Assembly: GCA_030038435.1 (NCBI GenBank)
Contig: JASHOY010000377.1
Span: forward strand, 1-64,000
DNA length: 64,000 nucleotides
Source: Acidobacteriaceae bacterium
Lineage (GTDB): Bacteria; Acidobacteriota; Terriglobia; Terriglobales; Acidobacteriaceae
Reading direction: 5' to 3'
Shown: in pieces, positions 1,884-39,596 of the stretch
Numbering within the stretch: position 1 is the first letter of the stretch
Layout: each line of letters begins with the position of its first letter
Position numbers and translations under genes: made by a program
The notes under the pieces: generated by a model
Seen by the model: only the letters and a program-made list of their open reading frames with translations
What the model was told of the DNA's origin: nothing
Databases searched by the model: none

Positions 1884-4800
1884 ATGTCGAAATTTTTCAT
1901 TCGCCGGCCCATTGTAGCGATTGTCATCGCCATTCTCACCGTCATCATCGGAACCGTGTCGATGCTGACCTTACCCACCTCGCTCTATCCCGATATCGTG
2001 CCACCGGAAATCATGGTGCAGGCCACGTTTCCAGGCGCCGATGCAGAGACCCTGGCGCAGTCCGTGGCGACGCCGCTCGAAGAACAGATGAATGGTGTCG
2101 ACCACATGATTTACATGAACTCGGTGAGCGCCAACAACGGGCAGGCGACGGTCTATGTAGACTTCGACGTCAAGACCAATCCCGATACCGATCAGGTGCT
2201 CTCGCAGCTTCGCGTCTCGCAGGCACAGCCGCAGTTGCCCGCGGAGGTGAATACCGCGGGGATCGTAGTGCAGAAGTCTCTGACCTCGCCGCTGATGCTG
2301 ATCGGACTCTCGTCTCCAGGCGGAAGATATGACGCGCAGTTTCTAACCAATTATGCCATCATCCATCTCCAGGATGAGCTGACCCGCGTCTCCGGCGTGG
2401 CGCGAATTCAAGTTTTCGGTGGACAGTATGCGCTGCGTGTCTGGGTCAATCCGGAGAAACTGGCGCAACTCGGCGTCACCGCAACCGATGTTATCAATGC
2501 CATTGAGGTGCAGAACAACGTCAATCCCGCCGGCAAGATCGGCGGAGAGCCGGTTCCCAACGGCCAGCAGTTCACTTACACGGTGCGCACGCAGGGCCGC
2601 CTCGTTACACCCCAGCAATTCGGCAATATCGTCATTCGCGCCAACCCCGATGGTTCGGTCCTTCATCTCCGCGATGTCGCGCGCATCGAACTCGGCTCGC
2701 AGGTTTATGATCTGGCCGCCCGTTTCAACAATGCTCCCGCCGGCGTGATGGCGGTCTATCAGTTGCCGGGCTCCAACGCGGTGGAGACCGCCGCTGCCGT
2801 CACCCGGCGCATGCAGCAGCTTTCGGCGACCTTTCCGCCGGGCATGAGTTACGAAATTCCTCTGGACACCACCAAGGCGGTAACCGCGGGTATCCACGAA
2901 ATCGTCTTCACGCTTGGCCTCGCGCTGCTGCTCGTCATTCTGGTGGTGTACCTGTTTCTCCAGGGCTGGCGAGCCACGCTGATCCCGCTGATGGCGGTTC
3001 CGGTTTCGCTGATTGGAACCTTCATCGTATTTCCTCTGCTGGGCTTCTCCATCAACACGCTGTCACTCTTCGGGCTGGTGCTGGCCATCGGGCTCGTAGT
3101 GGATGACGCCATCATCGTAGTGGAGGCCGTTGAGCACCACATCGATGAAGGGCTCACTCCTCGCGATGCGGCGTTCAAGGCCATGGAAGAGGTTGGCGGA
3201 CCGGTGGTCGCCATCGCCCTGATTCTTGCCGCGGTCTTCATCCCCACCGCCGCTATTCCGGGAATCACGGGGCGGCTGTATCAGCAATTCGCTGTCACCA
3301 TCGCTATTTCCGTATTGATTTCGGCATTCAATGCCTTGACGCTCAGCCCTGCGCTCGCGGCGCTTTTGCTGAAGCCGAAAAGCTTAGACTATCGCCGCAG
3401 TCCGCTGCGGAGATTCTTCGCGTGGTTTAATCGGCTATTTGGCCGTACTACCGATAAGTACGTTTCAACCTCCGGCGTTCTCATTCACAAGTCCGGATTT
3501 GCCATGGCCGGGCTTGTCGTGATTGCCGTGCTGGCATTTCTAGTCGGCGGACGCCTGCCGACCGGCTTCCTTCCGCAGGAAGACCAGGGCTATATGTTTG
3601 TCGCCCTGCAATTGCCGGATGCGGCCTCCCTGCAGCGCACCGACGCCGCCGCGCAACACGTCACCGATGCTTTGCTGCAAACTCCCGGCATCCAGAGCGT
3701 GATTGGCGTCGACGGCTTCAACCTGCTGAGTCAGACGCAAAGCACAAATACCGGCTTCTTCTTTGTCACGCTCAAGCCGTGGGCTGCGCGCCGGTCGCGC
3801 GCCGAACAGATTCAGGCCATTCAGGCGATCGTGCAAAGAAAACTCGCGGCAGTAAGTGAGGGCATAGCCTTCTCGTTCCCACCGCCCGCCATTCCCGGCA
3901 TCGGGACCTCCGGCGGCGTCACCATGATCCTCGAGGACCGCTCGGGTAACGCGGATCCTGCCTTCCTCACCCGCAATGTTTACGCCTTCCTTGGCGCCAT
4001 CGCCAGGCGCCACGAGGTCGCTGCGGCCATTCCTTCGTACCTGCCCGCCGTTCCGCAGCTTTATGCAGGCGTGGATCGAGACAAGGCGGCACAACAGCAG
4101 GTGGACCTTAGTTCGATCTACACCACCATGCAAACCTTCATGGGTGGCTACCTGGTGAATTACTTCAACCGCTTCGGCCGGCAATGGCAGACCTATGTGG
4201 AAGCGGAAGGAGATTCCCGCACCCATATTCAGGACATCAATCAGTTCTATGTCCGCAGCGCGAATGGCAGCCAGGTGCCGCTCGGATCGCTGGTGCATGT
4301 AAAGCAAGTCACCGGACCGGAATTCATCACGCACTTCGACGAATACCCCAGCGCGCAGATCAACATCGTTGGAACTCCCGGATACAGCTCCGGGCAGGTT
4401 CGCGCCGCCCTCGAAGAGGTCTTCCGTGAAACCATGCCGCCGGGAATGGGCTATGCGTACTCGGGCATGAGCTTTCAGGAACAGCAGGCAGCGGAAGGCG
4501 TCCCCGCCTGGATGGTATTCGGTCTTTCGCTGATCGTCGTCTTTCTGATTCTGGCTGCGCTCTACGAGAGCTGGACACTGCCTTTCAGCGTATTGCTCAG
4601 CACGCCGGTGGCGATTCTTGGCGCCTATCTCGCACTCACCATGCGTTCCTATGAGAACGACGTGTTTACCACAGTCGGCCTGATCATGCTCATCGGCCTC
4701 TCGGCAAAGAATGCAATCCTGATCGTTGAATTCGCCGTTTCGAACTACAAGCAGGGCATGAGCATCTCGGAATCGGCCCTGCGCGCGGCGCGCCTGCGCT

Positions 4801-10648: not shown

Positions 10649-10812
10649 CTGGCCCATCCTCTCCAAATCAATCGATTGCGTGCTCCATCCTTCCGGGGTC
10701 TCATCGCAGGAGGGTGGGAGAGCACATCGCCAGCATCCGCAATCCGTCCTCGCAAACGCGCGTCAAGCCAGAATTGGTTCTGGCTCGAAGCGTCATCGCC
10801 AGGCACCCACCG
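10649..10812. repeat. Dispersed intergenic repeat, copy A (GGGTGG/CCACCC family)
   Basis: Aligns by eye with 12824-12992: ctggcccatcctctccaaatcaatcgattgcgtgctccatccttccggggtctcatcgcaggagggtgggagagcacatcgc. Confidence 0.65.
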
Positions 10813-12823: not shown

Positions 12824-12992
12824 GGGTGGCCCACCCTTTCCAAAGCAATCGACTGGTTGCACCATCCTTCCGCAGTCGCATCGCGGAAGGGTGGGAGAAC
12901 ACATCGCTGCAATCGGGATCCGTCCTTCCCAACGCAAATCGATCCAGAAATGATTCTCGCTTGATGCCTGATCGCCGGGTGGCCCACCCTTG
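12824..12992. repeat. Dispersed intergenic repeat, copy B, bounded by GGGTGGCCCACCCTT at both ends
   Basis: Near-palindromic GGGTGGCCCACCC at 12824 and again at 12978; internal homology to copy A. Confidence 0.7.
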
Positions 12993-13202
12993 AATTATGC
13001 CTGTCTCGGTTACTTCTGACTGGCGCCGGCAAACGCGCTGTCAACCCCTTCCGGGCCAAAAAATTTGTAAGCGCCTGAAAACAAGACCAAAATCCCATCG
13101 GCACTTTTGCCGATTCATTCGTGGGTTTCACTATCCTTAAACCGTGCTCCTCGAAACGCCTCCCACGGTATCTTCCAAGTCCCGAAGTGCGGAGTATAAA
13201 TA

Positions 13203-13330
13203 TCATGTTTTCAAACACTTGTAGAACTATGCGCTATAAGGCACTTAGTTTCATGCACTTGCAAAATGACGTCTTTGCAAGTTGCCTTTTTTCATACACT
13301 TGTGATTTTCCCTGGAGGAGGGGGCATGTC
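13203..13330 (+). repeat. Iterated TTTTCATACACTTG motif array, locus 1 (3 units)
   Basis: ttttcaaacacttgtag / tttcatgcacttgcaaaat / ttttcatacacttgtgattttcc between the secreted CDS and the ppc 3' end. Confidence 0.65.
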
Positions 13331-13400: not shown

Positions 13401-16328
13401 TTACCCCGTGTTCCTCAACCCCGCCGCAATGCCGCTGATCGTGGCCGCAATTGCCCGGTTCACTTCGGGCGTGTTCTCGCCCGCGCGCTTGCGCCGCAGC
13501 ATATCCACCTGGATCAAATGCATCGGGTCCACATACGGATTCCTGAGCCGGATCGAGTGCGCCAGCACCTGGTTGTTCTCCAGCAGCTCCTTTTGCCGCG
13601 TAATCTCCAGCACCGCCCTCACGCTGCGGTGAAATTCCCCTTCAAACATGTCGTAAACCCGTTCACGCAGCTTCTCGTCTTCCACCAGTGTCGAGTAGAG
13701 GCGCGCCGTGGCCAGGTCCGCCTTGCCCAGCGCCATCTCCACGTTGCGCAGCAAATCGATGAACAGCGGAAACTCCTGGGCCATGGACTGCAGCAATTCC
13801 AACGCGTGCGGTTTGGACAAAAATTGGTCGATGGCGTAGCCCACGCCAAACCACGCCGGCACCAGCAGCCGCGACTGCGTCCAGCCGAAGACCCATGGAA
13901 TCGCCCGCAGATCGCTCAGCTTCGGAGATGCATTTCGCCGCGCCGGCCGCGAACCAATCTTGGCGTTCTCCAGTTCGCCCACCGGCGTGGATTGTTCGAA
14001 ATACGTCACTACGCCGGGGTCGTCGAGAATATGCTTGCGGTAATAGCCGAACGCGATTTGGGAAAGCTCATCGAGCGCCGTTTCCCACTTCGGCTTCAGC
14101 ACGCCGGTAAAATGGCCCTCCGGATCGCGCGCATTGGGCCGCGCCAGCGCGTCGAGCGAGGCCGCTATCATCAACTCCAGGTTGCGCTCCGCCAGCACTT
14201 CGTCGGCATATTTGAAATTCAGCACCTCACCCTGCTCGGTGATGCGCAAATGGCCCTCGAAGGAGTCCACCGGCTGTGCGTATATGGCGCGATGCGTGGG
14301 GCCTCCGCCGCGGCCGACCGTGCCGCCGCGCCCGTGGAACAGCCTCAGCTTCACTCCCATTTCGCGCGCCACCTCGTGCAGCGCCCGATGGGCGCGGAAG
14401 ATCTCCCACGTCGAGGTCAACATGCCGCCGTCTTTATTGGAATCGGAATAACCGAGCATGACTTCCTGCCAGTTATCCCAGCTTGCCAGCAGTTTGCGAT
14501 AATCGGCGCGGCCCCATAGTTCACGGCAAACTCCGGGCGCGTTGCGCAAATCCTCGATCAACTCGAAGAGTGGCACCGGCATTAGTCCCGGATCACGATG
14601 TTGACCACCGGCCCGTCCTCCCGCTGCCGCTCGCGACCCCTCCACGCGCACACCGCTCAGGCGGGCCAGGCGTACGACGGATAGCACGTCGTCTATCGAA
14701 GACGCCCCGCTGATTACGTACTGACGAATCGCCTCAGGCGAGCAGCCGCCCTTCACTTCCGCCACCACCCGGAGCGTTTCCAGCACGGACGCGGTCTGTG
14801 CCGACAATTCCCGCGGCAGCTCCGGCGCAATGGTGTCGCTGATCGCTTCCTTCAGTGCGCTGGCCAACACCCGCCCGTGTTGTCTTATGTCCAGCGTATG
14901 CAGATTCAGCCGGAAAGTTCGCACCTGCAGAATCAGCGGATCCACCAGCGTTCGGGCAATGCGCAGACCGCGGTTGCAGGCAAGCGACGTCCGCAGCGTT
15001 TCCAGGTCATCGAGAAACTCATCCGCCGAGCAGTAAGCGGGCAGGACCTGCGCCAGCTCCTCCTGCCCCTGCGCCAGCGTATAGGGCATCACGGGCAGCT
15101 CGGATCCGTGGCGTCCCGGGTGGCGCATGGTCCGCTGGATACGCGCCTTCAAACAGATCACGAACCGCCGGTAATACTCGAACTCATATTGCTCGCCGAA
15201 AACCTGCGCTTCCGGAGTGTGCACCTGGGCCACATATGCCTTCAGTCGTTTCAGCAACTCCTCGCTGACCGGCCGCTGTTGCGCGCTCGTAGTCAGCAGA
15301 TCGATGACTTCCTGAAGTCGCCCGAGGTAGTAGATCAGCAGATGGCCGCGCGCCAATTCGATTGCGTCGTGGGTCACCTGCGGGGTTACGAAGGGATTGC
15401 CGTCGCGATCGCCGCCGATCCACGAGCCGAAGCGCAGCACCAGCGGCAACTCGTGGGGCTCGATTTCCAGGCCGTAGGTGGCACCAAGCGCCTGGGAGAT
15501 TTCGCGGTAAAGAACCGGCAGCGTCTCGAAAATCGAAACGTCATAGTAGTCGAGCCCCATCTTGATTTCGTCATAGACCGTGGGCCGGCGCGAACGCACC
15601 TCGTCGGTCTGCCACAGGCTGGTGATCTCGGCGAGCACCAGTTCTTCGAGCCGCGCAATCTCCTGCTCCGGAACCGGAATCAGGTCCAGCATGGCCAGGA
15701 ACTCGCCGATGCGCCGCCGCTTGAACATCACGCTGCGCCGCGCGGCTTCTGTCGGATGCGCGGTAAACACGGGCACAATGAGCACCCGGCGCAGATAATC
15801 GAGCGCCTCTTCCGCAGCGATGCCCACCCGGCGCATCTCGGCCAGGGTGCCTTGAAGCGAGCCGCGCTGACGGCCCGCGCCACCGCTCAAGCGCAACGCC
15901 ATGCGCCGCCGCTTGCGGTGATTGGTTTCCGCCAGATTGATCAGTTCAAAATAGAACGCAAAGGCTCGCGTCAGCAGCGTAGCGCGGTCGGGAGCGAGCC
16001 CCCGCACCAGTTCCAAGGCTACCTCGCCAAAACCGGCAGCCACCTCGTCTTTTCCGCGCGCTTCTGCATCACGCCGCCGGATCGTGCCCTGGCGCAGGGC
16101 CTCCACCTGCTCGAAGAGTTCCTCGCCCGCCTGCTCGCGCAGCACTTCGCCCAGCAGCATGCCCAGGGAGCGCACATCGCGCCGCAGCGGCGCTTCCTTC
16201 AACTCGCCGGATTGCGCCTCGAGTTCTGCCAGCCGTTGCGTCCAGGTTTCAGGATTCCAAAGGGGAGCCATCCTGTCTTGATTATGCACGACAGATCTCC
16301 CGTCGCCGCCTGGGGAAGCGGAAGACAC
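13401..16328 (-). CDS. ppc: Phosphoenolpyruvate carboxylase
   Basis: TAHPTEAARRSVMFKRR, LMIGYSDSNKDGG-like VMLGYSDSNKDGGMLTSTWEI, LFHGRGGTVGRGGGP; the true start may be MAPLWNPETW at about 16271. Confidence 0.95.
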   Translation of the reverse strand: MSSASPGGDGRSVVHNQDRMAPLWNPETWTQRLAELEAQSGELKEAPLRRDVRSLGMLLGEVLREQAGEELFEQVEALRQGTIRRRDAEARGKDEVAAGFGEVALELVRGLAPDRATLLTRAFAFYFELINLAETNHRKRRRMALRLSGGAGRQRGSLQGTLAEMRRVGIAAEEALDYLRRVLIVPVFTAHPTEAARRSVMFKRRRIGEFLAMLDLIPVPEQEIARLEELVLAEITSLWQTDEVRSRRPTVYDEIKMGLDYYDVSIFETLPVLYREISQALGATYGLEIEPHELPLVLRFGSWIGGDRDGNPFVTPQVTHDAIELARGHLLIYYLGRLQEVIDLLTTSAQQRPVSEELLKRLKAYVAQVHTPEAQVFGEQYEFEYYRRFVICLKARIQRTMRHPGRHGSELPVMPYTLAQGQEELAQVLPAYCSADEFLDDLETLRTSLACNRGLRIARTLVDPLILQVRTFRLNLHTLDIRQHGRVLASALKEAISDTIAPELPRELSAQTASVLETLRVVAEVKGGCSPEAIRQYVISGASSIDDVLSVVRLARLSGVRVEGSRAAAGGRAGGQHRDPGLMPVPLFELIEDLRNAPGVCRELWGRADYRKLLASWDNWQEVMLGYSDSNKDGGMLTSTWEIFRAHRALHEVAREMGVKLRLFHGRGGTVGRGGGPTHRAIYAQPVDSFEGHLRITEQGEVLNFKYADEVLAERNLELMIAASLDALARPNARDPEGHFTGVLKPKWETALDELSQIAFGYYRKHILDDPGVVTYFEQSTPVGELENAKIGSRPARRNASPKLSDLRAIPWVFGWTQSRLLVPAWFGVGYAIDQFLSKPHALELLQSMAQEFPLFIDLLRNVEMALGKADLATARLYSTLVEDEKLRERVYDMFEGEFHRSVRAVLEITRQKELLENNQVLAHSIRLRNPYVDPMHLIQVDMLRRKRAGENTPEVNRAIAATISGIAAGLRNTG

Positions 16329-38888: not shown

Positions 38889-39044
38889 TGGCTTGAAGTT
38901 CCTCGCACGGCGTGGACTGCGGGTATGAGCAGTGTATCGGAGCGGACTGACAACGCCGTGAACGACGTGCTGGCTGCTGGTGGAGCTGATGCAATTGCGC
39001 CTCGCAGGCGGGCGAGAAGCAGACGGCTCCCCCTGGGGGGGAGG

Positions 39045-39182
39045 AAAACACAAGTGTATGAAAATAAAGGGTTCGCAGAGGAGCCTATTTTGCAAGTGTA
39101 TGGAAATAAACGAGTTATTTTTTAAGTGTATGAAAATAAATGAGTTATGAGAGATACATTCTGCAACTGTATGAAAATAAGT
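39045..39182 (-). repeat. Iterated TTTATTTTCATACACTTG motif array, locus 2 (4 units)
   Basis: aagtgtatgaaaataaa-type motifs starting at 39052, 39094, 39124 and 39165 on the + strand. Confidence 0.75.
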
Positions 39183-39596
39183 AGCTTGTTTTCTGGCGGC
39201 GTTTTTTGGGGGATGGGAGGTATGCAGACGGTGGAGAGACGTCCCAGGGTGCGCCGTTTTTCTTCTGTGTGCATGATGCAAGCGTAGCGAAAGGCAAGAA
39301 TTAATCGGCAAAGGAGGGGCGGGAAATTGCCTTGATTTTTCAGAGGCTTGCAGAATTTCCGGCGGCGAGGGGGTTGACAGCGAGAATCGCTGGTGCGCGC
39401 GGAGGCACGGGGGAAACGGGAACCGCCAGGTTGAGAGGAGCCGGGTGCGGATCGATCCGATCCCTGAATGCTGGTTACAATCTAATGCCCTCACTGAATG
39501 CAGACTTATGCCCCCACCTGCCATTCCTCGGTGGTGCCGCTGGCCAGGCCCAGGCTACAGTGGAAATCCGCCAGGCGAGTGATATCCGGGAGTTGT

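Follow-up and report, generated by a model that had tools for sequence, protein, structure and literature searches.

Our results suggest that the repeat array beside ppc belongs to an orphan 5′ leader copy, of the kind found in front of the genes of an uncharacterized acidobacterial family whose product carries a zinc motif, a reading to which we give a probability of roughly 60%. The copy, W13, lies in a stretch of 64,000 nt that was analyzed as a whole and is referred to here as the window. It is called an orphan because a protein HMM places the zinc-motif gene nowhere in the window. Membership in the leader family is indicated by positions 13039-13137, which carry the module TGTCAA...TTGCCG-N19-TAnnnT, and a profile comparison agrees. 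This reading joins two things that were unexplained, a Pfam-less gene family, found with a profile of 11 members in 178 of the 298 genomes of the order, and dispersed box arrays of the same clade, for which it names a probable protein partner.

Leader copies in the window and arrays in the source genome

The preliminary description of this DNA reported three plus-strand units next to ppc and treated the array as the full extent of the element. The units were confirmed at 13208, 13248 and 13289, with the box form TTTTCA-N2-CACTTG and spacings of 40 and 41 bp. The homologous unit proved larger than the array, running from TGTCAACCCC at 13039 to about 13328 and including an upstream module (Table 1). 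Between the ATG of W13 and the stop codon of the convergent ppc there are 72 bp; the open frame from this ATG runs antisense into ppc, and no member of the zinc-motif family was found there. Like W13, the copy at 39 kb (W39) is a leader without the zinc-motif gene, with an upstream module spanning 39379-39281, and it stands 162 bp from a downstream same-strand gene. As had been stated, W13 and the 39 kb array end in the same two unit types in the same order. The module is termed promoter-like on the basis of conservation among copies, its 19-bp spacer being long, and a sigma-70 scan of the W13 region, which permits only spacers of 16-18, did not call the TTGCCG/TAnnnT pair. A second repeat of the window (10650-10803 and 12827-12980, 77% identical) has its right copy just upstream of W13.

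Table 1. Positions of the features of the two leader copies, W13 and W39, in the window
Feature	Position	Strand	Basis
W13, entire leader copy lacking the gene: module A, boxes, SD-like stretch and ATG	13039..13328	+	Comparison with gene leaders of relatives and the genome's 18 other arrays
W13, TGTCAACCCC, left limit of homologous region	13039..13048	+	Copy-to-copy similarity begins there
W13, TTGTAAGCGCCTGAAAACAAG, box-like in inverted orientation	13065..13085	+	By eye; alignment of its reverse complement, CTTGTTTTCAGGCGCTTACAA, to box CTTGTTTTCAAACACTTGCAA
W13, -35-like TTGCCG, spacer 19	13107..13112	+	Conserved among copies
W13, -10-like TATCCT	13132..13137	+	Conserved among copies as TAnnnT
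W13, box 1, TTTTCAAACACTTG	13208..13221	+	Box pattern match
W13, box 2, GTTTCATGCACTTG	13248..13261	+	Box pattern match
W13, box 3 (terminal), TTTTCATACACTTG	13289..13302	+	Box pattern match
W13, terminal signature TGATTTTCCC, right after box 3	13303-13312	+	
W13, SD-like GGAGGAGGGGG	13314..13324	+	Followed by ATG, 13326-13328
ppc (name from the preliminary description), convergent neighbor of W13	13401..16328	-	ORF; three relatives have homologous DNA (73-74% identity)
W39, leader copy upstream of same-strand gene	39027..39379	-	
W39, TTGCCGATTAATTC, including -35-like TTGCCG 39306-39311	39298..39311	-	
W39, -10-like TACGCT	39281-39286	-	
W39, four boxes: 39164-39177, 39123-39136, 39093-39106, 39051-39064	39051..39177	-	Spacings 41, 30, 42
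W39, C/G-run hairpin CCTCCCCCCCAGGGGGAG after terminal box	39027..39044	-	

The boxes are not a chance recurrence of a motif, in agreement with the earlier claim. Specifically, the window contains seven matches to TTTTCANNCACTTG with at most one mismatch (three in W13 and four on the minus strand at 39 kb), whereas shuffled windows gave a mean of 0.11 and a maximum of 1. Across the source genome (94.5% complete, 7.1% contamination; most of the genomes compared are drafts), the 14-base box was matched 77 times with up to two mismatches, compared with 14 matches for the reversed control, and the clustered matches make up 19 arrays, of which the window contains two. The arrays have the anatomy TGTCAACCCC, about 60 bp, TTTGCCGATTAATTC and TAnnnT, with the boxes downstream and C/G-rich sequence 3′ of them. 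In a search allowing up to four edits, the core of the module was placed upstream of 17 of the 19 arrays, one placement being doubtful (L036, 453 bp from its array); of the arrays without a placed module, L046 begins close to the end of its contig, and for L040 no module was found within the stretch examined. Neighboring boxes, counted up to 120 bp apart with no preset spacing, are separated by 30, 40, 41, 42 or 81 bp in the source genome and by 30, 39-42 or 78-82 bp in relatives. The terminal unit is conserved, as had been suspected: the signature [TC][GA]N0-2TTT follows 17 of the 19 terminal boxes, compared with 2 of the 41 internal ones. The element is thus defined at its fixed end, but the type and number of its units vary, with 30-bp and 41-bp units and, in the orthologous pair L059/L064, five units versus two. 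Two other loci can be noted here. In L048, a lone box (4661-4674) lies near a copy of ATGTGTGTCAAGCGTTTTATTGCCA, which also begins the upstream module of the array there; in L034, about 1.2 kb from the array, positions 4329-4374 resemble the Acido-Lenti-1 RNA below threshold (31.4 bits versus a gathering score of 37).

What lies next to the arrays bears on whether they are operators through which a host regulator controls the adjacent genes. Phased, conserved sites accompanied by a promoter-like module would suit such a role, as would the location of W39 upstream of a same-strand gene. Yet the orientation of neighbors is mixed (6 convergent, 10 co-directional, 2 divergent and 1 not determined), the genes flanking the source-genome and JOPF arrays have no consistent function or orthologue in common, and the side of ppc that W13 faces is its 3′ end. 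We therefore consider operators of this kind improbable. Since only 6 of the 19 arrays have convergent neighbors, the posture of W13 is not general in the source genome. A common neighboring gene was rejected because none is consistent. Control of ppc was likewise rejected, given that no array was found beside ppc in relatives (flank read in G060, model search for G061 and G062) and that W13 points at its 3′ end. Read as a gene-less solo leader, W13 probably does nothing for ppc.

The zinc-motif gene family and its leaders

The product of the gene family is a small protein with the motif C-x6-G-x2-C-x10-C-x2-H. Its profile has 3 matches in the source genome (G000), 14 in G060, 12 in G150 and 1 in G208, and no match in G008 or G138. 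Pfam, NCBIfam and PHROGs gave no family at cut-off or with a convincing E-value, the best domain match being WRC (0.0017; 18.4 bits versus a cut-off of 28.6). In a literature search that covered subscription journals thinly, we found no description of the box arrays or of the gene family.

The tie between arrays and gene comes from the leaders. In G060, the module that precedes gene-less arrays is also found at the 5′ ends of copies of the zinc-motif gene, before the start codon. Gene-bearing leaders are arranged as a promoter-like pair, a terminator in several of them, boxes, a G- or C/G-rich stretch with a Shine-Dalgarno (SD) sequence, ATG and the gene. For example, L282 has two TGTTTTC motifs 41 bp apart, followed by CCCCCCGAATGAGGGGGG, SD, ATG and the zinc-motif gene, and similar leaders, with boxes between promoter and start codon, occur in L263, L269, L274, L283 and L285. 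In L232 and L250, the boxes of gene-bearing leaders are oppositely oriented, and box orientation relative to the gene varies among branches. Furthermore, a profile of the modules of gene-less JOPF arrays reached gene leaders at 1.6e-19, and one of source-genome modules reached several gene leaders at 1e-5 to 1e-2, while 180 random pieces of the window gave no match. Intrinsic terminators (e.g., GCCCAGCTCCGGCTGGGCTTTTTT) occur in some gene leaders (L230, L254 and L270), where they separate the promoter from the start codon, and upstream of the arrays in L061, L063 and L065; they could possibly serve as attenuators.

Not all arrays are in leaders. In G060 and its relatives, some arrays lie within the 3′ coding part of the zinc-motif gene, for which the leader model offers no explanation. 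Boxes in this position were observed in L040 (2956-3051), L191, L192, L193, L194, L204, L216 and L221, where they are read in three frames (FQTL, IKHL and FSNT). G060 also contains near-identical gene 5′ ends with unrelated flanks (L229, L235, L247, L249 and L251), several of them cut at contig ends, which we take as signs of recent gene multiplication in that genome. A further G060 repeat of about 140 bp is MITE-like, with inverted ends GGCGGTTCTCCAATT ... AATTGGAGAACCGC; it occurs in L089 (951-1110 and 1291-1413) and in L056, L065, L070 and L196, lying in the upstream region of the array in L065 and L070.

Leaders are often found without the gene. In the source genome, 19 arrays compare with 3 gene matches, so that extragenic solo repeats exceed the gene, and the protein HMM places the gene beside a single array (L040). 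G208 has 19 box matches versus 1 gene match. In G208 and G150, genomes of other genera, 16 solo copies could be aligned to the G208 gene leader at 45-74% identity; they contain the promoter region, the terminator, two boxes and the G-rich stretch. A neighboring gene was called for 14 of these copies; all 14 sit past its stop codon and point back at it, with the first box 26 to 122 bp from that stop. W13 has the same posture toward ppc. Because G150 is a single contig, the occurrence of leader and gene together in that genome is not an assembly artifact.

The distribution of arrays and gene is consistent with this tie. In a scan of species genomes, which may omit near relatives of the source genome, the exact two-unit pattern was confined to three MAGs of Acidobacteriaceae (JOPF013, JOPF174 and JOPF161). 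A two-unit sequence model gave 39 matches in G000, 79 in G060, 25 in G061 and 8 in G062, with matches in 7 of the 298 genomes of the order; G277 and G279, listed in the genus of the window, share coordinates with G060 and G061 and were taken as identical genomes. Among 120 genomes of the family, a looser single-box pattern matched 67 times in 32 genomes, with 19 of these matches in G208, compared with 3 for the reversed control. All seven array-bearing genomes have the zinc-motif gene, versus 178/298 overall (P = 0.026, relatedness ignored). Within the genus, the gene is present in five of five array-bearing genomes (P = 0.018, relatedness ignored), a comparison for which 22 genomes were taken as gene-less, 20 by name and two from an unlisted part of the results. 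In many gene-bearing genomes, no array of the source-genome sequence type was detected. Viral contigs did not contain the two-unit array, and a viral origin was rejected.

Constraint, turnover and candidate function of the boxes

Comparison of orthologous arrays between G060 and G061 separates boxes from the DNA between them. In three pairs, box identity is 92.7, 93.8 and 95.8%, whereas that of the spacers is 75.8, 58.8 and 73.3%, respectively; a fourth pair, at about 98% in boxes and spacers alike, is uninformative. Since boxes are conserved while spacers drift, selection acts on the boxes in copies that stayed in place. Together, box constraint and quantized spacing point to sites in duplex DNA. 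We infer that the boxes are phased DNA-binding sites, probably autoregulatory. As candidate sites, they would be bound on a single face of the helix by a sequence-specific protein, most likely the zinc-motif protein itself, which would then regulate its own gene.

A different function would be expected if the array were a structured or regulatory RNA, such as a riboswitch-like leader with a fold in every unit. Some features are compatible with folding: unit 2 of W13, scored as terminator-like, has a T-run after a perfect 9-bp inverted repeat, C/G-run hairpins are present in some copies, and the leaders of G208 and G150 have a C-run able to pair with the SD, with one pair changed on both sides, a weak sign of such pairing. 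Yet RNAalifold predicted no base pair across 89 two-unit rows, and true arms paired no better than swapped ones (5.73/9 versus 5.96/9), so the covariance raised in the preliminary description was negative by both approaches and a hairpin in each unit was rejected. Folding energies were ordinary (z-scores of -1.08 and -1.22). Nothing in Rfam 15 was at or above the gathering score, and a known RNA family was rejected as well. A folded RNA is disfavored for the array, and we regard the RNA explanation as very unlikely.

The boxes, read as DNA-binding sites, are carried by copies that come and go. G060 and G061 have sites and arrays in common (L059/L212, L066/L211, L201/L213 and L204/L216). ppc DNA is found in G060, G061 and G062 at 73-74% identity; its flank in G060 has no box, only other repeats, and among the matches of the two-unit model search, none is on a ppc contig of G061 or G062. 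Because G060 and G061, which are closer to each other, share sites while the ppc flanks of relatives do not show the array, copies are inherited in the short term and gained or lost in the long term. The proposal of a heritable dispersed element therefore holds in part. There are 19 arrays in the source genome and related arrays in the genus, and the order of units was kept in the orthologous pair L066/L068, but the array by itself represents no more than the boxes of a gene leader. Copy number and turnover suggest that the leaders may be mobile; by eye, no terminal inverted repeat or target duplication was seen at the ends compared, all of which were filled sites.

How the copies multiply allows more than one answer. 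They could be a selfish small interspersed repeat of the BOX or MITE kind, moved by an unrelated transposase for which the boxes are the sites, with the gene tie incidental. Modular copies with variable unit number, their intergenic location in both orientations to neighbors, and their absence beside ppc in G060 and from the matches on the G061 and G062 ppc contigs are all in keeping with such a repeat. However, several genera have this module with its boxes as the leader of a single gene family, the boxes are constrained in copies unmoved since G060 and G061 split, and no inverted ends or duplicated targets were seen at the ends compared; we consider this origin doubtful. Alternatively, and this we put forward tentatively, the leader itself may be the spreading unit, without the gene or a recognizable transposase, its boxes binding the gene product and its solo copies serving as dispersed sites or as decoys of the autoregulator. 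Such leaders would end up in intergenic DNA, in many cases facing a convergent gene at its 3′ end.

Relation to known repeats

Several known repeat systems share features with these leaders. CRISPR arrays have a leader, repeats of constant period and a distinct last repeat, and the arrays described here resemble them in their leader-like sequence, constant period and distinct last unit. In contrast to CRISPR spacers, the stretches between boxes are only about 15-27 bp long and drift between orthologues like ordinary DNA, and the box is degenerate. MITEs are short, gene-less copies of a longer gene-bearing form, and here, too, gene-less short copies exist beside a gene-bearing form, but no transposase was recognized, and terminal inverted repeats and target duplications were not seen by eye at the filled sites compared.

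The nearest precedents that we found are the pneumococcal BOX elements and the REP/RAYT system. To our knowledge, BOX is not the leader of a particular gene family, and stable RNA secondary structure of the modules is not supported for the arrays described here. The likeness lies in being dispersed, modular and clade-restricted: BOX elements are modular dispersed repeats that act through extensive RNA structure, restricted to a clade and thought to have proliferated in the past (PMC3049150). REPs and BIMEs are small, intergenic, species-specific repeats with many solo copies and a gene family, RAYT, that has cognate copies at its own locus, and REP abundance goes with the presence of the RAYT gene (PMC2817692; PMC3116915). 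Our repeats are similarly small, dispersed, intergenic and mostly solo, the gene carries cognate copies, abundance tracks gene presence, and the solo copies of G208 follow stop codons. By analogy, solo leaders may spread much as REPs do around RAYT genes. The differences are also clear. The zinc-motif protein has no Y1 (HUH) tyrosine transposase domain among its Pfam, NCBIfam and PHROGs matches. In L232, L250, L282 and L283, the leader stands solely 5′ of the gene rather than flanking it as an inverted pair, and in G060 boxes lie in the 3′ coding part. Finally, a REP is a palindrome of 20-40 bp on both sides of its gene, whereas the repeat described here is a promoter-bearing leader of 200-350 bp. 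If solo leaders do spread alone, they would represent a bacterial repeat derived from the control region of a gene rather than from the ends of a transposon.
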